In this document: one piece after another, positions 18,619 through 28,902 of the stretch
How the letters are laid out: each line of letters starts with the position of its first letter
Position numbering within the stretch: position 1 is the stretch's first letter
Assembly (NCBI GenBank): GCA_016192075.1
Contig: JACPUU010000016.1
Span: forward strand, 62,001 to 126,000
Source: Bacteroidota bacterium
GTDB lineage: Bacteria; Bacteroidota; Bacteroidia; Flavobacteriales_D; Crocinitomicaceae
Reading direction: 5' to 3'
DNA: 64,000 nucleotides
The notes under the pieces: model-generated
Told to the model about the DNA's origin: nothing
Databases searched by the model: none
The model's input: the letters and a program-made list of their open reading frames with translations, nothing else
Translations under genes and position numbers: made by a program

Positions 18619-19581
18619 ATGAGAAAGATTTTATCTTTTTTAATCTGTTATTCAGTTGTCTCAATTGCAGTAGCTCAGCAGGATAAACAGTACACCCATT
18701 TTATGTTCGACCGCATGTCTTTTAACCCTGCATCAACAGGTTTTAAAGGATATTGTGGAACGTTAATTTATCGTAACCAGTGGGACAGGGTACAGGATGC
18801 ACCAAATTCAACATTGCTGAACCTGCAGGGAAATATTCCTAAAATCAGCAGCGGTGTCGGACTTTCTTTCACCAATGATGCAATCGGTTTTCAGCGTAAC
18901 AACATCGTTCAATTGTGTTATGCCCGTCACATTCCGACCAACTACGGTATTTTCAGTGCAGGAGCTTCACTTGGTATCGTAAACGTAGGTTTTTCGCCAA
19001 TGTGGGTGCCGCCAACCAATGTTTTTGATTCCAACCTTCCGGCTGCAACTGCAGGTACAGGGTTTGACATGAACTTTGGATTATACTGGCATGCAACAGG
19101 TTCTTACCCTTATTACGTAGGTATTTCTGCGACACACATCCTGCCTCCAACTATTCAGGCTGTAAATTATTCAGTAGCCAGACATTATTATATTATTGCC
19201 GGTTATGATTATGACCTGGGATATCAGTTGGGAACTCAAAACAAACTTTTGTTAAAACCATCTATCCTGGTTAAAGCTGATGGTGCAACGGCTATTTTTG
19301 ACGTTAACCTGATGGCTGAATATTACCTGAGTACTGCTGCTTACCTGTGGGGCGGCGTTTCATACCGTATGTCTGACGGTATTCCAATTATGCTGGGGTA
19401 CGGTTTTGCACCGCGCAATGAACCAAGCAAAAACTGGCTGAAATTCGGTTACTCATTTGATATTATGACAAACGCATTAAATCCTTACGGAAAAGGAACG
19501 CATGAGCTGATGCTTAATTATTGTATGTTCCCTCCTCCTCCGGTAGTTGCGCGACACGGTAACCCTTTTATTTTACAGTAG
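18619..19581 (+). CDS. PorP/SprF family type IX secretion system membrane protein
   Basis: 320 residues with signal peptide MRKILSFLICYSVVSIAVAQ, then QQDKQYTHFMFDRMSFNPASTGF, the PorP/SprF N-terminal signature. The remainder is predicted beta-barrel, with YYHATGSYPYYVGISATHILPP-type strands and a C-terminus rich in aromatic/Gly strands (FKFGYSFDIM). The family sits in the outer membrane; PorP works with the GldK/GldN ring and SprF is needed to secrete SprB. I prefer ATG 18619 over the in-frame GTG at 18601 because it begins directly at the signal peptide. It heads the T9SS core cluster; gldK follows after 104 bases. Confidence 0.9.
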   Translation: MRKILSFLICYSVVSIAVAQQDKQYTHFMFDRMSFNPASTGFKGYCGTLIYRNQWDRVQDAPNSTLLNLQGNIPKISSGVGLSFTNDAIGFQRNNIVQLCYARHIPTNYGIFSAGASLGIVNVGFSPMWVPPTNVFDSNLPAATAGTGFDMNFGLYWHATGSYPYYVGISATHILPPTIQAVNYSVARHYYIIAGYDYDLGYQLGTQNKLLLKPSILVKADGATAIFDVNLMAEYYLSTAAYLWGGVSYRMSDGIPIMLGYGFAPRNEPSKNWLKFGYSFDIMTNALNPYGKGTHELMLNYCMFPPPPVVARHGNPFILQ

Positions 19582-19685: not shown

Positions 19686-21317
19686 ATGAAAAAATTATTG
19701 TTTTTGGTAGTTGTAGGAATTGCAGCGGTTTTTACTGCGTGTGATTCCGGGACCGGTCACCTGACCGGAGTGCAGGGAAGACGAGTTTATTACCCCGAGA
19801 TTCCGCTGGGAATGGTTTACATTCCTTCGGGGTCATATACCATGGGTAATGGCGATCAGGATGTTCCATTCCTTCATCAGGCACGGTCAAAAGTCGTTTC
19901 AATTCCGGCTTTTTACATGGATCAGACAGAGATCACAAACAATGAGTACCGTGAGTTTGTGTACTGGGTAAGAGATTCCATTATGCTTGAAAAAGTGTAT
20001 GCAAATGCACCAAATGCAAGCTGGACCAATAACATGGGGAATAACATTCAGCCTACGCTGGAACCTGGTGTTCTTGCAGACATGTTAAGTTACCCTGACA
20101 TTTATTACGATGAAACACAACAGGCCTGGGTTTCTTTTGATCCAAACGATCCGTATTCATCTTCTGGTTTAAGTGAGCAGCAAATGCGTCAGTTATTCCC
20201 GCTTTCATGGAAAATGCGCGGTATTAAAGATGAGCAGATCATACCGTTGATTTCTGATATGTACCTGAGACCAAATGAAAGATGGTACAAAAGACGTGAG
20301 ATTGATACCCGTAAACTGAACTTCCGTTATTACTGGATTGATCTTCCTGAAGCTGCTAAAAAAGGCCGTGTAAACATTGTACGGAATGGATATGACAACC
20401 AAGGTAACTACACCAACCCAAATCTTGAACCACAGCACCGTGATCTGAAAAATCCGGAGCATCCGTTTACCGGAGAACCGGTTGGTCAGGATCTGGATCA
20501 GGGGTATTTCAACAAAAAAGGACAAAACAATGCCATTCGTTCACACGAAGATCGCAGCCGTTTTATTATTCAGGAAGAAATCAACGTTTATCCTGACACC
20601 TTGTGCTGGGTACGTGACTTTACCTATTCCTTTAATGATCCAATGACCAACATGTATTTCTGGCACCCGGCTTATGATAACTATCCGGTTATCGGAATTA
20701 CCTGGGTTCAGGCACGTGCTTTCTGCGTGTGGAGAACTCAAAAGCTCAACAACTGGCTTGAAGGTATGGGAGCTTTGTGGGTACAGGATTTCCGTCTTCC
20801 GACAGAAGGAGAATGGGAATACGGTGCTCGCGGTGATCTGAAAGACAGCCCTTATCCATGGGGAGGTCCTTATATCCGTAACTCAGCAGGCTGTATGCTT
20901 GGTAACTTTAAACCAATGCGCGGACGTTATTTTGATGACGGTGGATTTTATCCGGTAAAAGCATATTCTTACAACCCGAATGGTTATGGGCTGTATTGCA
21001 TGGCTGGTAACGTGGCTGAGTGGACTGAAACAGCTTACGATGAGTCAGTTTACGAATTCTCACACGATTTGAGCCCTGAATACAGATATTATGCAATGGA
21101 TTGGGATCCACCTTCGATGAAACGTAAAGTTATCCGCGGTGGTTCATGGAAAGATATCGGGTTCTATTTGCAAACAAGTTCAAGAACTTATGAATACCAG
21201 GATACATCAAAATCGTATATCGGATTCAGATGCGTTCAAAGTCATATCGGTCGTGGTGGTAGAGACTTCTCAAGAGAAGGAGGAGAGGAGTTAAGATCTG
21301 ATATCGAGTTAAGATAA
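19686..21317 (+). CDS. gldK: Gliding motility / T9SS lipoprotein GldK (PorK)
   Basis: 543 residues. Lipoprotein signal with Cys19 (AAVFTACDSG). The mature protein has the formylglycine-generating-enzyme-like (SUMF1/FGE) fold: GMVYIPSGSYTMGNGD, DQTEITNNEYREFVYWVRDS, ITWVQARAFCVWRTQ, FRLPTEGEWEYGARG, NGYGLYCMAGNVAEWTE and VIRGGSWKDIGFYLQ, ending in FRCVQSHIGR. In GldK this fold is used structurally: with GldN it forms a large ring attached to the inner leaflet of the outer membrane. It is the first of the gldK-L-M-N run, with short spacers of 55, 68 and 20 bases. Confidence 0.97.
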   Translation: MKKLLFLVVVGIAAVFTACDSGTGHLTGVQGRRVYYPEIPLGMVYIPSGSYTMGNGDQDVPFLHQARSKVVSIPAFYMDQTEITNNEYREFVYWVRDSIMLEKVYANAPNASWTNNMGNNIQPTLEPGVLADMLSYPDIYYDETQQAWVSFDPNDPYSSSGLSEQQMRQLFPLSWKMRGIKDEQIIPLISDMYLRPNERWYKRREIDTRKLNFRYYWIDLPEAAKKGRVNIVRNGYDNQGNYTNPNLEPQHRDLKNPEHPFTGEPVGQDLDQGYFNKKGQNNAIRSHEDRSRFIIQEEINVYPDTLCWVRDFTYSFNDPMTNMYFWHPAYDNYPVIGITWVQARAFCVWRTQKLNNWLEGMGALWVQDFRLPTEGEWEYGARGDLKDSPYPWGGPYIRNSAGCMLGNFKPMRGRYFDDGGFYPVKAYSYNPNGYGLYCMAGNVAEWTETAYDESVYEFSHDLSPEYRYYAMDWDPPSMKRKVIRGGSWKDIGFYLQTSSRTYEYQDTSKSYIGFRCVQSHIGRGGRDFSREGGEELRSDIELR

Positions 21318-21372: not shown

Positions 21373-22203
21373 ATGAGACCAGGAACCAAAAAATGGAAGT
21401 TATTTATGGCAAAGCTGTACGGTATTGGTGCAGCAGTTGTAATCGTTGGTGCGATGTTTAAAATCATGCACTGGCCAGGTGCGGGTGCGATGCTTGTAGG
21501 TGGATTGAGTACAGAAGCCGTAATTTTCTTTTTCTCCGCATTCGAACCACTTCATGAAGATCCGAAATGGGAGCTTGTTTATCCTGAATTAGCATTAGCA
21601 CATGATGAAGAATTTGATCTTCATGCTTACATTGATGAAAAAGGTGCATCCGGCGGTCATGGCGGAGGTGGTTCAGTTACCGGAATCACTGAGAAATTTG
21701 ACAGCCTGCTCGAAGAAGCAAAAATTGATGCTGAACTCTTAAATCGTTTGGGTGACGGAATCCGTACATTGAGCGATAACGCTGAAGGGTTAAAAGCAGT
21801 TTCAGGAGCAGCAGCTGCTACTGATTCGTATGTTGCAAGCCTTGAAGGAGCTTCAAAACAAGTTAAAAACCTGTCAGCTAACTATGAAAAAGCATCTGAG
21901 TCATTACTTGGATTGACTTCATCAAGCGAAGAAGGTGCTTCTTTTGGAGAACAACTTCAGAAAGTATCAACTAACCTGGCAGCTCTGAACAATGTTTATG
22001 AGCTTCAATTGAAAGGTTCTTCGGCTCACCTTGAGTCAACAGAAAAATTCCAGGCTGGTGTACTTGAAATGATGGAAAATCTGAACGCATCAATTCAGGA
22101 TACTAAGACTTACAAAGAAAATATGGCCATGTTGTCTCGTAACCTGACAGACCTCAACCAGGTTTATGGAAATATGCTTAAAGCTATGACTATTACCAGA
22201 TAA
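21373..22203 (+). CDS. gldL: Gliding motility / T9SS motor protein GldL
   Basis: 276 residues, an inner-membrane protein with two N-terminal transmembrane helices (about 15-32 and 38-56) and a cytoplasmic, mostly helical C-terminal domain. The membrane segment contains FKIMHWPGAGAMLVGGLSTEAVIFFFSAFEP; Glu48 and Glu58 correspond to the helix-2 glutamates reported as essential for proton-driven rotation in Flavobacterium GldL (Glu49, Glu59). GldL forms a pentamer around two GldM helices and converts the proton gradient into torque. The Gly/His/Ser-rich stretch near residue 95 is a linker. It lies between gldK and gldM. Confidence 0.97.
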   Translation: MRPGTKKWKLFMAKLYGIGAAVVIVGAMFKIMHWPGAGAMLVGGLSTEAVIFFFSAFEPLHEDPKWELVYPELALAHDEEFDLHAYIDEKGASGGHGGGGSVTGITEKFDSLLEEAKIDAELLNRLGDGIRTLSDNAEGLKAVSGAAAATDSYVASLEGASKQVKNLSANYEKASESLLGLTSSSEEGASFGEQLQKVSTNLAALNNVYELQLKGSSAHLESTEKFQAGVLEMMENLNASIQDTKTYKENMAMLSRNLTDLNQVYGNMLKAMTITR

Positions 22204-22271: not shown

Positions 22272-23990
22272 ATGGCAGGAGGAAAAGAAACCCCTAGGCA
22301 GAAGATGATCGGTATGATGTACCTTGTACTCACCGCTCTATTGGCTCTTAACGTTTCGAAGCAGATTGTCGCTGCGTTCGTTACGCTGAATGACAAACTT
22401 GACGCATCAGCAACCATCATTAATAATAAGAATGAGGATACGCATGCAGAGTTTGATAAAAAAAGGGCTGCATTACAGGCGACAAAAGGAGACATGAAAC
22501 TCTTCGAATTGTGGCAGGGTAAAGCAACCGAACTGAAGGCAGAAACGGCACTTATTGTCGGTTATCTCTTAGGTGAATGCAATGAAATGATCAAAACCGC
22601 TGAAGGTGTTGACTGGATTGAAGAGAAGGATGAAGCGGGAAATATCGTTAAATTAAAACCATTGATGGAAATCAACGGGATGGATAACTACGATATTCCA
22701 ACCAACATGTTTGTAGGGGGAAACCCAAACAGCCCTGTTGAACGCGGTTTGACGATTCGTACAAAAATTCATGAGTATCGGGATAAAGTAGCCGGAATGA
22801 TGGCTACTTATACGCAGGGAAAAGATAAAAACTGGTCATTCACTGCACCTGCAGATGAAAGTGGACTGGCTGAAGCGTTGAAAACCTGTAATCCGGCTGA
22901 TACAGCTAAGATTGCTCAGTTTTATCGCGCATTAACCTTGCCTGAAAAACTGCACGCGCATGAAGATGGTGAAGAAGATATGCCATGGCCGTCTGTAATT
23001 TTTGACCACGCTCCTATTGTTGCAGCAGCAGCGATGTTTACATCACTGAAACTGGACGTTAAGAATGCTGAGTCAATGGCTACAGAATATATGCTTGGTA
23101 AAATTGAAGCACCGGTATTTAACTTTAACAAAATTGAACCACTTGCTTTTGCCCGTACAGGGTATATTAACCAGGGTGATTCATTGGATTTGAGTGTTAT
23201 GATTGCTGCATACGATTCAAATGAGGTATCTAAGATCAGATATGGCGTTGATGCTGACACAGCAAACGAAGCAAACTGGAAAGAAGTTTCCGGTAAAATT
23301 GGTTTACATGGCTCTTCTCCTGGGTTGCACAAAGTAAAAGGTGTAATCGGTGTTAAAGAAAAAGGAGAGCTTGCATGGAAACCGTGGGATTTTACATTCA
23401 CTGTTGGTCAGCCAATGGGTGTTGTAGCGCAGCCTGAACTTCGTGTTCTCTATTGGGGATATGATAACAAGGTTGAAGGTACAGCTTCAGGGTATGATCC
23501 AAGTTCTGTAACCCTTTCAGGAAGCGGCTGTAGCCTTTCTTCAAAAGGAAACGGTGCATACATTGCAAAAGTAGATCGTGGAACACGAACTGCCAAAATC
23601 AGTGTAAGTGCTAAAAAAGATGATGGAACTTCAGTAAGCCTTGGATCATTTGATTTTGTTTGTAAACCAATGCCACCAGCTGAGATTAAATTTGCAGGTG
23701 TAAAAAGTGGTGAGTCTATTCAGTACACCGCTGCCAGAGGAACAAGCAAAGTAACCGTAGGTATTGACCCTTCAAGTCCGTTACAGGCAGTAAATTATAC
23801 TGTAACCGGTGGAAGTGTTTATGTAAGCGGAATTCCGGGTGAAGGAAAGATTGGTGCTGGTGGATCTTTGGATTCAAAAGCAACAGGTTTGATTAATCAG
23901 TCAAAAGGAAAAACAATAATTTTTGAGGTTAATTACAAAGGACCAGACGGCGTAGGTCGTATTGGAACGATGACTTGTAAAGTGAAGTAG
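22272..23990 (+). CDS. gldM: Gliding motility / T9SS motor shaft protein GldM
   Basis: 572 residues. A short cytoplasmic start (MAGGKETPRQKM) leads into a single transmembrane helix (about 13-35, IGMMYLVLTALLALNVSKQIVAAF) and then a long periplasmic part of four domains. The N-terminal Arg9 that pairs with the GldL glutamate is present. Family landmarks include DNYDIPTNMFVGGNP, FDHAPIVAAAAMFTSLKLDVKNAE, YINQGDSLDLSVMIAAYDS and QPMGVVAQPELRVLYWGYDN. GldM spans the periplasm from the GldL pentamer to the GldK/GldN ring. A second, diverged copy lies downstream of gldN. Confidence 0.97.
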   Translation: MAGGKETPRQKMIGMMYLVLTALLALNVSKQIVAAFVTLNDKLDASATIINNKNEDTHAEFDKKRAALQATKGDMKLFELWQGKATELKAETALIVGYLLGECNEMIKTAEGVDWIEEKDEAGNIVKLKPLMEINGMDNYDIPTNMFVGGNPNSPVERGLTIRTKIHEYRDKVAGMMATYTQGKDKNWSFTAPADESGLAEALKTCNPADTAKIAQFYRALTLPEKLHAHEDGEEDMPWPSVIFDHAPIVAAAAMFTSLKLDVKNAESMATEYMLGKIEAPVFNFNKIEPLAFARTGYINQGDSLDLSVMIAAYDSNEVSKIRYGVDADTANEANWKEVSGKIGLHGSSPGLHKVKGVIGVKEKGELAWKPWDFTFTVGQPMGVVAQPELRVLYWGYDNKVEGTASGYDPSSVTLSGSGCSLSSKGNGAYIAKVDRGTRTAKISVSAKKDDGTSVSLGSFDFVCKPMPPAEIKFAGVKSGESIQYTAARGTSKVTVGIDPSSPLQAVNYTVTGGSVYVSGIPGEGKIGAGGSLDSKATGLINQSKGKTIIFEVNYKGPDGVGRIGTMTCKVK

Positions 23991-24010: not shown

Positions 24011-25036
24011 ATGAAAAAGGTGATTTTATCTTTAGTGGTGTTGACACTGTGTGTTGTGGGAAGAACTCAGGATATCAGGGGGCCTATTGCCAATCCTGCT
24101 CCTGGTGTATTGGATGGAGTTTATGTGCAGGAACACATTCCGACTAAAAAGGTTGTTCCGTACGAATATGTACGTGAAGCCGACGTAGCCTGGTCTAAAC
24201 GTGTTTGGCGTGTTATTGACCTCAGGGAGAAATTCAACCACCCGTTGTATTATCCGCTGGATGATATACGTCTTGACGCAACCGGTGATGATTTTGTCTG
24301 GAAAAGAAATCCAACAAGATGGAGTCTCTGGACAATCATTCGTTACCATGTATTCACCGGTGATTTAACAGCCTATTCACCCTATGACCCTGATTGGTAT
24401 GACTGGAAAGACGGAGATTTATTCAAATATCCGATCACTTCTGATAAATACGGTTTAGGGCCTGGTGGAACGTTTTACACCGATTCACTTTTCCGTGACT
24501 TTTTGAAAGCAGGTTATTTTGGAGAAACAGATATGTCAGGCGGACTCGTTTCCATGAAAAGTCAGTTGTATCCTGATGAGGATTCAATTGATGCAGCTGG
24601 TAACGTAGTTTATTTTGAGCGTGACTATAACTGGTATCTTTCAAAAGACATTGTACAATACAGAATTAAAGAAGATTGGTTCTTTGATAAAGAGCGTTCA
24701 GTACTTGATGTAAGAATTATCGGAATTTGTCCGGTGACTTACAAAAGAGATGAATCAGGAAATATCAGCGGATTCAATGAACTTTTCTGGTTGTATTTCC
24801 CTGAGTGCCGTTATGTGTTCCAGAACTTCTTTGTTCAGAACAAGGATAACGATGCCCAACGGATGTCATTTGATGACTTGTTCTGGAAACGTATGTTCCA
24901 AAGCTACATTGTAAAATCATCGAATATCTATGATCGTGAAATTGACAGCTACAAAGCAGGGGTTGATGCCTTGCTTGAGTCTGAAAAAATCAAAGAAGAT
25001 ATTTTCATCTTTGAACACGATCTCTGGAATTTCTAA
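24011..25036 (+). CDS. gldN: Gliding motility / T9SS ring protein GldN (PorN)
   Basis: 341 residues with a signal peptide (KKVILSLVVLTLCVVGRTQ). The family core is present: VVPYEYVREADVAWSKRVWRVIDLREKFNHPLYYP at about 50-84, then WSLWTIIRYHVF, SKDIVQYRIKEDWFFDKERSVLDVRIIGICPV and ELFWLYFPECRYVFQ, ending in SYIVKSSNIYDREIDSYK. GldN is periplasmic and forms the T9SS ring with GldK. It starts 20 bases after gldM, so they share a transcript; a strong terminator follows. Confidence 0.97.
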   Translation: MKKVILSLVVLTLCVVGRTQDIRGPIANPAPGVLDGVYVQEHIPTKKVVPYEYVREADVAWSKRVWRVIDLREKFNHPLYYPLDDIRLDATGDDFVWKRNPTRWSLWTIIRYHVFTGDLTAYSPYDPDWYDWKDGDLFKYPITSDKYGLGPGGTFYTDSLFRDFLKAGYFGETDMSGGLVSMKSQLYPDEDSIDAAGNVVYFERDYNWYLSKDIVQYRIKEDWFFDKERSVLDVRIIGICPVTYKRDESGNISGFNELFWLYFPECRYVFQNFFVQNKDNDAQRMSFDDLFWKRMFQSYIVKSSNIYDREIDSYKAGVDALLESEKIKEDIFIFEHDLWNF

Positions 25037-25055
25037 GATTTAAATTTTTATTCAG

Positions 25056-25090
25056 AAGAGGCTGCCCAAAAAGGCAGCCTCTTTTTTTTG
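25056..25090 (+). terminator. Terminator after gldN
   Basis: The stem AAGAGGCTGCC (25056-25066) pairs perfectly with GGCAGCCTCTT (25073-25083), loop CAAAAA, then a T run to about 25089. It separates gldN from the second gldM. Confidence 0.92.
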
Positions 25091-25162
25091 TCGGATTTTT
25101 CCGGTTACTTTTTTTCCAAACCGAATTCTCAGGGTATAAAAACAATTAAAACCAAGGAATTT

Positions 25163-26878
25163 ATGGCAGGAGGAAAAGAAACACCCAGACAAAAGATGAT
25201 CGGAATGATGTACTTAGTCTTAACAGCATTGCTGGCACTAAATGTCTCTAAACAGATTGTGGCCGCATTCATAACGCTGAATGATAAAATAGATCGGAGT
25301 GCTTCAGGCATTGATGATCAGATTGAAGGAACGTATATGCGTTTTGATCAGAAAGGAGCAACGCTTCAGGCACAGCACGAAAACATGGACGACTTTAATT
25401 TGTGGAATGAAAAAGCGCTTGATCTCAGAAAGTCAAGCAAAGAAGTGATCAGCTTTTTACTTTCTGAATGCAATGAAATGATAAAATTAGCTGAGGGCGA
25501 AGATTGGATTGAGGAACAGGATGACGATGGAAACATTACCAAACTGAGATCACTTGATAAGATTGAGAATATGGATGATTATGACATTCCAACCAATCTT
25601 TTTGTGGGTGGAAACCCTGAAAAACCGGGTGAAAGAGGAATGGCACTGGTAGAAAAAATTCACGGGTACCGCAATCACATCAGTGAAATAATGGCCACCT
25701 ACACAACCGGACAAAAATCATGGTCATTTAAAGCACCTGAAAAGCCAGGGCAATTGTCGCAGGCTTTGTTGTCCGCTAATCCTGCTGATACAGCTATTAT
25801 AAGCCGTTTCTACAAATCGCTGACACTTCCTGAAGTACTGCATGTGCATGGCGAAGAGGGAGAATTGCCGTGGGTTTCGGTAACGTTTGATCATGCCCCA
25901 ATTGTGGCAGCAGCTGCTATGTTCACCTCGTTGAAACTGGATATTAAAAGTGCGCAGGCCTTGTCTGCAGAATACATGCTGGCAAAAATTGACGTGACCC
26001 CGTTTAATTTTAACAAGATTGATCCAATGGCCATTGCAAATACAGCCTACATTAACCAGGGCGATTCACTTCAGCTGAATGTGATGATTGCAGCGTATGA
26101 TTCAACCAGCATTACCCGTGTGAGGTATGGTATTGATGCAGATACGGCAAACAAGGCAGCGTGGAAAGAAACAAACGGTGGTTTGGCATTGGATGGTGCT
26201 AAACCCGGTTTGCACCGTGTTAAAGGTGAAATTGCAGTTCGTGAAAGAGGTGAAATTGTTTGGAAACCCTGGGATTTCAGTTACACGGTAGGGCAACCCA
26301 TGGGGGTTATTGCACAGCCTGATATGCGCGTTTTGTATTGGGGTTATGACAATGTTATTGAAAGTGCTGCATCCGGTTATCCGGCAGATAAAATCAAACT
26401 TTCACCTTCGGGCTGCTCGTTGCGCTCAAATGGAAATGGAAAGTATTACGTTGATGTTGCCCGTGGAACAAGAACAGCAAGCATTTCAATCAGTGGCCTA
26501 AGAGATGACGGCAGCAGCGTAAATCTCGGAAAATTTGATTTTCAGTGTAAATCATTACCGCGCCCAACCTTGTATTTTGGAAGTGCCGAAAGTGGTGGAA
26601 GCTGCAGGCTGGTTGAGGCCCGTGCCACCAATAAAGTCCGTTTGGCGCTTGATCCATCTGTGCCGCTTACGAATGTCAAATATAAGGTTACCGGCGGTAC
26701 GCTGCGGGTTTCAGATCTTCCGGGCAGTGCAGAAATAACAGCAGACGGCGTTCTGAATCAACGCTGTAAAAACCTGATTGCCCAATCAGCCGGCAAAACA
26801 CTTTACTTTGATGTCAATTACGAAGATCCTTCCGGCATCAAGGGTATTGAATCGGGTTCCATTAAAATTCAACCCTGA
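25163..26878 (+). CDS. gldM: Second GldM paralogue (tandem duplicate)
   Basis: 571 residues, colinear with the GldM at 22272-23990 throughout. The N-terminus and membrane helix are nearly identical (MAGGKETPRQKMIGMMYLVL, including Arg9); the periplasmic part is clearly diverged, by eye a little over half identical. Conserved blocks include DDYDIPTNLFVGGNP, FDHAPIVAAAAMFTSLKLD and QPMGVIAQPDMRVLYWGYDN. I place the start at ATG 25163 by alignment with GldM; the longer frame from 25088 would begin inside terminator DNA. No second gldL or gldN accompanies it. A terminator precedes it, so it needs its own promoter. It may replace or mix with GldM in the motor shaft, perhaps changing cargo or ring partners; this is inference. 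Confidence 0.93.
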   Translation: MAGGKETPRQKMIGMMYLVLTALLALNVSKQIVAAFITLNDKIDRSASGIDDQIEGTYMRFDQKGATLQAQHENMDDFNLWNEKALDLRKSSKEVISFLLSECNEMIKLAEGEDWIEEQDDDGNITKLRSLDKIENMDDYDIPTNLFVGGNPEKPGERGMALVEKIHGYRNHISEIMATYTTGQKSWSFKAPEKPGQLSQALLSANPADTAIISRFYKSLTLPEVLHVHGEEGELPWVSVTFDHAPIVAAAAMFTSLKLDIKSAQALSAEYMLAKIDVTPFNFNKIDPMAIANTAYINQGDSLQLNVMIAAYDSTSITRVRYGIDADTANKAAWKETNGGLALDGAKPGLHRVKGEIAVRERGEIVWKPWDFSYTVGQPMGVIAQPDMRVLYWGYDNVIESAASGYPADKIKLSPSGCSLRSNGNGKYYVDVARGTRTASISISGLRDDGSSVNLGKFDFQCKSLPRPTLYFGSAESGGSCRLVEARATNKVRLALDPSVPLTNVKYKVTGGTLRVSDLPGSAEITADGVLNQRCKNLIAQSAGKTLYFDVNYEDPSGIKGIESGSIKIQP

Positions 26879-26898: not shown

Positions 26899-26929
26899 GG
26901 GCCTTCCAATTTTGGAGGGCCCTTTTTTT
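26899..26929 (+). terminator. Terminator after the second gldM
   Basis: GGGCCTTCCAA (26899-26909) pairs with TTGGAGGGCCC (26912-26922), one wobble, followed by seven T. It lies 20 bases after the stop codon. Confidence 0.88.
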
Positions 26930-26945
26930 GTTGCGGATAACTCAC

Positions 26946-26953
26946 TACCTTTG
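26946..26953 (+). promoter_or_regulatory. -7 promoter box of the ABC-F gene
   Basis: TACCTTTG matches the Bacteroidota -7 consensus TAnnTTTG. The ATG is only six bases downstream (26959), so the transcript would be leaderless or nearly so. The -33 region is the T run of the preceding terminator and matches only weakly. Confidence 0.5.
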
Positions 26954-26958
26954 CGGCC

Positions 26959-28902
26959 ATGATTCGTCTGGCAGAGCTTTCATATCATTTACCACAGGGG
27001 TTTTTGTATAAAAATATTTCCATGTTTCTGGACAGGGGAGATAAAATTGGATTGACCGGTAAAAACGGTGTGGGCAAATCAACCCTGCTCAAATTAATTC
27101 ACGGTGACATTACACCTACAGAGGGAGCCGTCATCCGGGAAAAAAACCTGAAAATTGGCTTTCTGACCCAGGACCTGGATATTGAAAAGAATTTTTCAGC
27201 CCGTGAATACATTGAACGCAGCAACGTGGAGGTTAAAGAATTAAAAAACCGGCTTGATTTTGTAAATCATCAGCTGGTTACCCGCACCGATTATGAGTCA
27301 GATGAATATGCTGCCCTGGTAGATGACGTTACACATCTCAATGACCGTTTAACGTTGCTGGATGCGCATCATTTTGCTGAGCGAATTGAACATGTGTTGA
27401 AAGGGCTTGGATTTAAACCGGCTGAATTTGACAACATGATTGGCAGTTTCAGCGGCGGTTGGCAAATGCGTATTGAACTGGCTAAATTGCTGGTGAATAA
27501 CCCCGATGTGCTGCTGATAGATGAGCCTACCAATCACCTGGACATTGTCTCTATTCAATGGCTGGAACAGTATTTAAAAAGCTATAAGGGCGGGCTGGTA
27601 CTTATCTCTCACGATAAGCGTTTTTTGGATAATGTCACCAACCGTACCATTGAAATTGCCAATCAGCGGCTGTATGATTATAAGTGCAATTATTCAAAAT
27701 ACCTGGTGCTGCATGCTGAAGAACTGGAGCGTACCATGCAGGCCAAAAAAAATCAGGATCGTGAAATAAAACGAACCGAAGATCTGATCAACAAATACCG
27801 CGCAAAAGCCAACAAAGCTTCGTTTGCCCAAAGTCTCATAAAAAAACTGGATAAGGTTGAGCGTATTGAAATAGACACCATTGAACGAAAAGCGTTTAAC
27901 CTGAAATTTTCACACTCAAATCCGTCCGGAAGAATGGTGCTTGATTTGAAAGGTGTAAGCAAAAATTACGGTTCTAAGATAATTTTTGATAACATGGACC
28001 TTGTTTTGGGAAGAGGAGAAAAGGTAGCGCTGCTTGGACCAAACGGCGTAGGAAAATCTACCCTCATCAAGGCTATTACAAAAGAGACCGGTCACGATGG
28101 TGTCATTGAGTTTGGACACAATGTTTCTATTGGTTATTTTGCGCAGGATTCGGCTGAAAAGCTCAACGGTGAAAAAACAGTTTTTGAAACCATTGATGAT
28201 ATTGCAGAAGGAGAGAAACGTAAAGACATCCGCAATATTTTGGGTGCTTTTCTTTTTGGCGGGGAAGAGATTGATAAAAAAGTAAAAGTGTTATCCGGCG
28301 GTGAGCGCACACGGCTTGCAATTTGCAAATTGCTTTTTCAGGATTTTAATTTCCTGATTATGGATGAGCCTACAAACCACCTTGATCTCAACAGTAAAGA
28401 AATTTTGAAAGATGCCCTGCGGTCTTACGAAGGAACCATTCTGCTGGTATCGCACGATCGTGATTTTCTGGATGGATTGAGTAATAAAATATGGGAAATT
28501 CAGGCAGGTAAAATCCGCACTCACTATTTTGGTGTGAATGAATTTTTAGAGCGCATAGCGGCAGATTTTGCTGAGGCTAAAACCCGTCTGTCTGACGGAC
28601 AGGCATCGTCCAAAGCAGAAAAAACGGTAACTGAACCGGTGGTCTCCAACAACGTGCAGAAGAAAGAAGATAAGGCGCAGCAGAAAAAGCTGGAAAATCA
28701 ATTGAAAAAAGTAGAGCGGGAGATTGAAGAGATGGAGATTTCAGTGAAAGAAAAACTGAAAGCACTGGAATCAGCAGATTTTAATAACATCGAAAAATTT
28801 GCACAAATCACCGCAGACTATGAGGCAGCTAAAACCAGGCTTGATCAGCTTATGACTTCCTGGGAAGGTGTGCAGCTTGAATTGGATATGATCAAAGCCT
28901 AG
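26959..28902 (+). CDS. ABC-F family ATPase (ribosome-associated type)
   Basis: 647 residues, two ABC cassettes in one chain without membrane segments. Cassette 1: Walker A TGKNGVGKSTLL (about 35-46), signature FSGGWQMRIELAKLL, Walker B LLIDEPTNHLD. Cassette 2: Walker A GPNGVGKSTLI, signature LSGGERTRLAICKLL, Walker B LIMDEPTNHLD. The linker between them (about 255-310, AEELERTMQAKKNQDREIKRTEDLI...) is the P-site tRNA-interaction motif region. The C-terminal 90 residues form a Lys/Glu-rich coiled coil. ABC-F proteins bind the ribosomal E site and relieve stalled translation or protect against antibiotics. The overall layout is like Uup/YheS; which subgroup cannot be settled by reading. It overlaps the end of the convergent acyltransferase gene by four bases. 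Confidence 0.94.
   Translation: MIRLAELSYHLPQGFLYKNISMFLDRGDKIGLTGKNGVGKSTLLKLIHGDITPTEGAVIREKNLKIGFLTQDLDIEKNFSAREYIERSNVEVKELKNRLDFVNHQLVTRTDYESDEYAALVDDVTHLNDRLTLLDAHHFAERIEHVLKGLGFKPAEFDNMIGSFSGGWQMRIELAKLLVNNPDVLLIDEPTNHLDIVSIQWLEQYLKSYKGGLVLISHDKRFLDNVTNRTIEIANQRLYDYKCNYSKYLVLHAEELERTMQAKKNQDREIKRTEDLINKYRAKANKASFAQSLIKKLDKVERIEIDTIERKAFNLKFSHSNPSGRMVLDLKGVSKNYGSKIIFDNMDLVLGRGEKVALLGPNGVGKSTLIKAITKETGHDGVIEFGHNVSIGYFAQDSAEKLNGEKTVFETIDDIAEGEKRKDIRNILGAFLFGGEEIDKKVKVLSGGERTRLAICKLLFQDFNFLIMDEPTNHLDLNSKEILKDALRSYEGTILLVSHDRDFLDGLSNKIWEIQAGKIRTHYFGVNEFLERIAADFAEAKTRLSDGQASSKAEKTVTEPVVSNNVQKKEDKAQQKKLENQLKKVEREIEEMEISVKEKLKALESADFNNIEKFAQITADYEAAKTRLDQLMTSWEGVQLELDMIKA

Follow-up and report, generated by a model that had tools for sequence, protein, structure and literature searches.

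An intact second GldM gene beside the gldKLMN operon of Crocinitomicaceae, evolving under apparent purifying selection

The two GldM chains of the 5:2 type IX motor meet the five GldL subunits differently, and where both chains are the same protein their roles are inseparable. In a family that has two genes for the shaft and one for the ring, these roles would become testable. The DNA analyzed here (the window, a stretch of 64,000 nucleotides from a Crocinitomicaceae genome) carries a second full-length gldM, gldM2, directly downstream of gldKLMN, which raises the question of what a second shaft gene does and how it came to stand there. The genes lie on one strand in the order sprF, gldK, gldL, gldM1, gldN, terminator, gldM2, terminator, ABC-F. 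Second copies of GldM and GldN in any genome are called M' and N' below. The features are:

18619..19581, + strand: PorP/SprF-family gene (sprF) upstream of gldK (profile matches)
19686..21317, + strand: gldK, ring lipoprotein (profile match)
21373..22203, + strand: gldL, sole full-length GldL of the genome (profile matches, genome search)
22272..23990, + strand: gldM1, operon copy of GldM, 572 aa (open reading frame, profile matches)
24011..25036, + strand: gldN, ring protein, sole GldN found in this genome (profile matches, genome search)
25054..25085, + strand: terminator between gldN and gldM2 (two separate terminator scans)
25163..26878, + strand: gldM2 (M'), second full-length GldM, 571 aa (open reading frame, TIGR03517 and Pfam matches, AlphaFold2 model, Foldseek)
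25163..25270, + strand: N-terminus and transmembrane helix of gldM2, residues 1-36 including Arg9 (identical to gldM1)
26009..26098, + strand: D2 strands 1-2 of gldM2, residues 283-312 (placed by alignment; swapped between chains in GldM dimers)
26294..26353, + strand: D3 strand 7 of gldM2, residues 378-397 (placed by alignment; swapped between chains in GldM dimers)
26555..26875, + strand: D4 tip domain of gldM2, residues 465-571 (42% identical to gldM1; pLDDT 91-96)
26899..26922, + strand: terminator 3' of gldM2 (terminator scan)
26959..28902, + strand: ABC-F ATPase gene, in relatives the usual downstream neighbor of M' (profile match)

The initial annotation described gldM2 as a full-length paralogue, and this is borne out. 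The gene starts with ATG, has no internal stops, and scores 199 bits against the NCBIfam model TIGR03517 (cut-off 180; the two GldM score 192 and 199), and Pfam GldM_1st, _2nd and _3rd are matched by gldM1 and gldM2 alike. Over their whole length the two proteins are 59% identical. The AlphaFold2 model of gldM2 has a mean pLDDT of 89.8, and its best Foldseek matches are PorM (7cmg) and GldM (6ey4). Whole-length TM-scores are low for this long bent monomer (0.30-0.38), and D3-D4 against 6ey6 give 0.65-0.71 of the target. The Pfam domains 1-3, the model and the Foldseek matches together give the four-domain D1-D4 architecture. Within its own genome of 4.65 Mb, which encodes two full-length GldM, one GldN and one full-length GldL, gldM2 stands outside the gldKLMN operon, 3' of gldN and behind a terminator, and the operon slot is filled by gldM1. 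That slot is the usual context of GldM/PorM and no requirement of the protein family.

The membrane part of gldM2 had been called nearly identical to that of GldM, which proves too modest: residues 1-36, Arg9 included, agree in 36 of 36 positions. Of the 32 degenerate codons in this segment just 11 match, which means that the helix is kept by selection and not by recent duplication or exchange; recent copying or DNA conversion is ruled out by the scrambled synonymous positions. Outside it, identity per 36-column block falls to 0.39-0.75 and D4 is only 42% identical, so that the proposed periplasmic divergence stands as well. In 42 genomes that have both copies, residues 1-36 of M and M' from the same genome are on average 0.95 identical (minimum 0.75). 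Arg9 occupies its column in all 113 GldM rows that are not gapped there (one row is). Helices of M' are 0.94-1.00 identical within clades; in Crocinitomix they are more variable than operon helices (0.94 vs 0.99).

Selection among relatives points the same way. In three close Crocinitomix pairs, M'-M' dN/dS is 0.031, 0.080 and 0.057, against 0.066, 0.118 and 0.140 for the operon copies, and the M' helix gives 0.000 (all by Nei-Gojobori only, with saturated values, where dS is given as -1, dropped). Synonymous distances in the same pairs are larger for M' (0.71, 1.22, 1.44) than for operon copies (0.15, 0.65, 0.60). Among the matches listed in the family, M' has no internal stops. Among these relatives M' is under purifying selection, in contrast to the unconstrained evolution that would have spoken against the initial annotation.

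Nor is the copy confined to one strain. At least 43 of 155 Crocinitomicaceae genomes, each at least 90% complete, encode two full-length GldM: 38 were found among the matches listed, and a second look at 46 further genomes (the three lacking any match, and all that had more than one except G021) added G083, G088, G116, G122 and G130; long partial second copies in G067, G071 and G141 were left out of the 43. Most genomes of the family have a single GldM, so evolution can do without M'. Among 23 genomes from the order's other families, 5 carry a second copy, one of which is cut by a contig end. Within a sample of the phylum, 74 of 296 genomes pass TIGR03517, of which 73 have a single copy and only the window's genome has two; this sample holds few genomes of the order, and as the model scores the window's GldM barely over the cut-off, diverged GldM may be missed. 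No second genome of the window's own genus was found among the family genomes and the other families of the order. A UniProt survey reports that GldM is not in excess over GldL (PMC9389320). Among the open-access papers that our literature search listed, none names a second gldM (subscription papers fall outside that search).

We compared the spread of M' with that of likely cargo. In the window's genome, the type-B secretion tail TIGR04131 has 55 matches, 49 of them over the cut-off, apparently a large set of type IX cargo. Counts of such candidates have a median of 56 in 43 two-M genomes and 40 in 62 others, where the 50 genomes of genus g22 are left out and the counts are unscored first-look candidates, as scoring ended at 32 per genome. 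Most of the difference is genome size (median 4.1 vs 3.2 Mb); with genus and size held, the residual is 4.8 (se 2.3).

The surroundings of M' are recurrent. The order is K-L-M-N-N'-M' or the shorter K-L-M-N-M', mostly followed by ABC-F. By script, a same-strand ABC-F gene lies within 4 kb 3' of 30 of 45 non-operon copies, and three more (G080, G087, G118) were found from gene listings; a copy counts as "non-operon" when the fetched stretch shows no GldL ahead of it, and on short contigs this label may be wrong for the G002 copy and for one copy in G132, which may be operon copies. Full-length GldL is single in all 29 two-M genomes examined, where other matches span at most 84 residues. Two shafts must therefore share one type of pentamer, unless one of them does without GldL. 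The window's genome also holds short stretches resembling the membrane part of GldL (C8:32296, C12:238931, C12:802525 and C12:802885; E 3e-10 to 9e-5), in frames of 182-208 aa.

A second full-length GldN occurs in 23 of 43 two-M genomes and in 1 of 28 one-M genomes with fetched loci (Fisher p 6.6e-6), or in 1 of 19 when nine one-M genomes on short stretches or a cut contig are removed (p 2.2e-4); both p values are too small, as the genomes are related, and these 43 genomes include 5 from outside the family and so differ from the 43 of 155. The genome search found no second GldN in the window's genome. Between gldN and M' in G030 (L059) and G131 (L103), the second gldN is interrupted by stops or is a remnant, and M' is intact. 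M' thus tends to accompany N' yet can stand without it, as in the window. Single loci depart from these patterns. G109 (L096:5325-7055, contig C11) has no M' beside ABC-F; its second gldM lies elsewhere and is closest to its own operon copy (98/91), which we read as turnover of the second copy. The second GldN of G077 (L091 near 7535) sits on a very long branch (3.37), and G127 (L121:1273-3144) has an M' of 624 aa.

It had been proposed that a strong terminator sets gldM2 apart as a separate transcript. The terminator itself is confirmed, with 13 pairs, 7 of them GC. The scan of the window gave 10 terminators in total against 9.3 in shuffles (sd 3.1), i.e., no overall excess, so the claim rests on the sites at 25054..25085 and 26899..26922 having the longest stems in the scan. 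The -7 box of Bacteroidota promoters is TAnnTTTG. Between gldN and gldM2 there is no exact copy, the nearest being TACTTTTT at 25106, and the ABC-F gene has an exact box at 26946; a sigma-70 promoter scan showed no excess (24 matches vs 22.4 in shuffles). The upstream terminator thus stands and the exact promoter box does not, and gldM2 likely has its own transcript. Among relatives, terminator-like sites precede 11 of 44 M' and none of 69 operon copies (1 of 880 shuffles), leaving 33 of 44 M' without one.

Codon usage, a mere proxy for expression, differs between the copies. Based on a ribosomal reference, codon adaptation in this genome is 0.687 for gldM1 and 0.609 for gldM2 (gldK 0.733, gldL 0.749, gldN 0.701). 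M1 exceeds M2 in 13 of 13 genomes with the ribosomal reference and in 40 of 40 with gldK plus gldL, with a near-tie in G131; the latter reference sits inside the operon and may favor M1 by place, which the ribosomal one does not. From the lower codon adaptation and the upstream terminator-like sites, we infer that M' is usually a minor species, partly on a separate transcript.

The periplasmic part is not uniformly diverged. GldM dimers swap D2 strands 1-2 and D3 strand 7 between chains, according to the structural account in PMC5790014. In this genome the two copies are 77% identical in the D2 strands, 85% in the D3 strand and 42% in D4, so that D4 is the least gldM1-like part of gldM2 and the swapped strands are more alike. 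Mean M1/M2 identity is 0.67 (D2) and 0.76 (D3) in the swapped strands, 0.51 and 0.53 in the rest of D2 and D3, and 0.45 in D4 (42 genomes, 41 for two segments; strands placed by alignment). Within five clades of 7, 4, 6, 4 and 4 genomes, D4 is less conserved in M' than in the operon copy for every genome pair (21/21, 6/6, 15/15, 6/6 and 6/6; pairs within a clade are non-independent). Clade g19b shows the reverse for D1-D3, which are better conserved in M' than in the operon copy, with D4 again less so; the D4 effect is therefore domain-specific there.

The window's genome further encodes a stand-alone, seemingly secreted protein of 236 aa (L003:1474-2184, - strand, contig C12 near 385.7 kb) that matches only GldM residues 442-566 (33%, E 7e-7) and has no Pfam match above cut-off. 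Short GldM-tail-like frames of about 190-270 aa occur in many relatives and are possibly a family of free GldM tips.

We consider it somewhat more likely than not that gldM2 encodes a second shaft subunit, minor or conditional, that works in the type IX secretion/gliding motor and shares the single GldL pentamer with GldM1. The protein would be made at a lower level and would bind GldL: its helix would enter the same sole pentamer as that of GldM1, with Arg9 kept for the proton-driven contact, and the remainder would fold into a periplasmic arm of the GldM type whose D4 tip differs from that of GldM1. By competing with or joining GldM1, it might couple a minority of motors differently to the GldK/GldN ring or to another partner. 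This explanation draws on the identical helix with scrambled codons, the single GldL, the low dN/dS, the spread over at least 43 of 155 genomes and the faster D4, and also on the higher codon adaptation of M1, the terminator-like sites at 11 of 44 M' against 0 of 69 operon copies, and the confident D4 model. Counting against it are the missing exact promoter box, the 33 M' without a terminator, the varying helix in relatives and the dispensability of M'.

How the copy arose is a separate matter. Repeated, independent duplication of gldM (and gldN) in each lineage is a serious contender, if somewhat short of probable. To place the second copies, a quick tree of 88 GldM requires at least 12 label changes, and a tree of 94 GldN, behaving like that of GldM, requires 13. 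The window's M2 falls within a 12-member M' clade in the quick tree (SH-aLRT 98); a careful tree of 41 rows splits this clade, and M2 joins only three g5 M2 copies (85/72), as separate duplications would have it. Against this, a single clade of all 12 M' is not rejected (p 0.29; p 0.068 with the g23 copy added), and the odd N-N'-M' order recurs in seven genus groups (g5, g7, g8, g11, g12, g19, g23; in g19, M' follows after a gap of 2.6 kb) and in G037, a genome from a different family.

When one set of proteins is split into domains, the domains also reject each other's groupings, as exchange predicts. Based on 32 sequences, the operon copies of g12 and g23 group together in D1 and in D2-D3 (100/98 and 100/100), and D4 rejects this grouping (p 2e-7). 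D1 weakly groups all 13 M' (58/82); D2-D3 does not reject this group (p 0.22), and D4 does (p 2.6e-4). The D4 tree joins the G008 operon copy with the g12 operon copies (96/98), which D1 rejects (p 2.6e-4). From these conflicts the copies have probably exchanged segments, and the disagreement between domains means that one GldM tree cannot date the duplication in the way the initial annotation had suggested. D4 is short and fast, so the conflict may be partly an artifact. We prefer to read the history as an old N'-M' module whose copies later exchanged segments, chiefly in D4, rather than as repeated duplication; gldM2 would then probably have begun as the M' part of such a module beside gldKLMN, its N' here probably lost. 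In the quick tree the operon gldM of G090 (L102) and of G064 (L099) falls away from the operon gldM of its genus, and the second copy is near kin in G090 and joins the genus in G064, where the careful tree leaves the case unresolved; the copies may have swapped places, or one may have come from outside.

For the function, a backup or dosage role is possible although we think it rather unlikely. Here M2 would do the same work as M1 from another promoter, with a tip less constrained because it is less used. The lower codon adaptation of M2, the larger synonymous distances of M' pairs and the faster D4 would all fit, and there is a precedent in gldN/gldO, which partly replace each other in Flavobacterium johnsoniae according to PMC9127263. 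The long retention of M' at low dN/dS speaks against such a role, as does clade g19b, whose more conserved D1-D3 and less conserved D4 are not predicted by general relaxation.

A division of labor within one motor is more doubtful still. M1 and M2 would pair in one GldL pentamer, with the D4 of M1 on the GldN ring and the D4 of M2 free for another partner. One GldL for two GldM suits this arrangement, and the more-alike swapped strands permit such heterodimers, although those strands are conserved in GldM anyway. D4 contacts PorN in P. gingivalis, where a published model has just one D4 of the PorM dimer seated on PorN, the other being free (PMC12421860), and Arg9 of one GldM at a time has been suggested to pair with Glu49 of GldL (PMC12239597). 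If M' were a fifth of all GldM and pairing were random, four fifths of the M' molecules would be in heterodimers, by arithmetic, so a scarce M2 would mostly be found there; swapping during translation would lower that share and favor homodimers. The unequal codon adaptation speaks against an obligatory 1:1 pair. A co-evolution test of own-genome against cross-genome M/M' identity was mostly null, own pairs being hardly more alike, with 4 of 25 comparisons at nominal p < 0.05 (Crocinitomix D3, 0.03, and D4, 0.02; g1/g5 D4, 0.04; Fluviicola D2, 0.03). It is similarly doubtful that Crocinitomicaceae at large build asymmetric GldL5-GldM1-GldM2 motors, with membrane parts alike, chains paired by the conserved swapped strands, only the M1 tip on the ring, and the fast-evolving M2 tip with a lineage-specific partner or cargo. 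If true, this would amount to a naturally heterodimeric type IX motor of 5:1:1 composition and offer a means of telling the two shafts of a 5:2 motor apart. Finally, that gldM2 is a decaying relic, as the remnant or interrupted N' of two relatives and the absent exact promoter box might suggest, is very improbable and largely refuted by dN/dS far below 1 among M' of relatives, the lack of internal stops among the matches listed, the identical helix and the confidently predicted fold.

Compared with known systems, gldM2 resembles GldM/PorM (TIGR03517) in family score, Arg9 helix, GldM domains and predicted fold. It differs from the usual GldM in being a second copy that lies apart from the KLMN operon, in its fast-diverging D4 and in having one GldL for both copies; the other Bacteroidota sampled have one GldM each. 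Like gldN/gldO of Flavobacterium johnsoniae, it is a paralogue adjoining the T9SS core operon, and the window's relatives carry N' with M'; unlike in gldN/gldO, the doubled subunit here is the shaft GldM, and the window's own genome lacks a second GldN. The type IX core is thus not fixed: shaft and ring subunits have been doubled, have probably exchanged segments and have partly been lost. The AglR-AglQ-AglS gliding motor of Myxococcus likewise combines one channel-ring protein with two shaft-type proteins (PMC9389320), a likeness that here concerns gene content alone, namely one full-length GldL in each of the 29 two-M genomes. By the account given there, sequence kinship between AglRQS and GldLM is not conclusive, and the dimer is proposed to be anchored in AglRQS-type motors whereas the GldLM shaft is proposed to turn (PMC9389320). 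Taken from its sequence and its relatives, gldM2 reads as a genuine second shaft gene, intact, under selection and distributed across the Crocinitomicaceae, and as a variant of the known GldLM motor.
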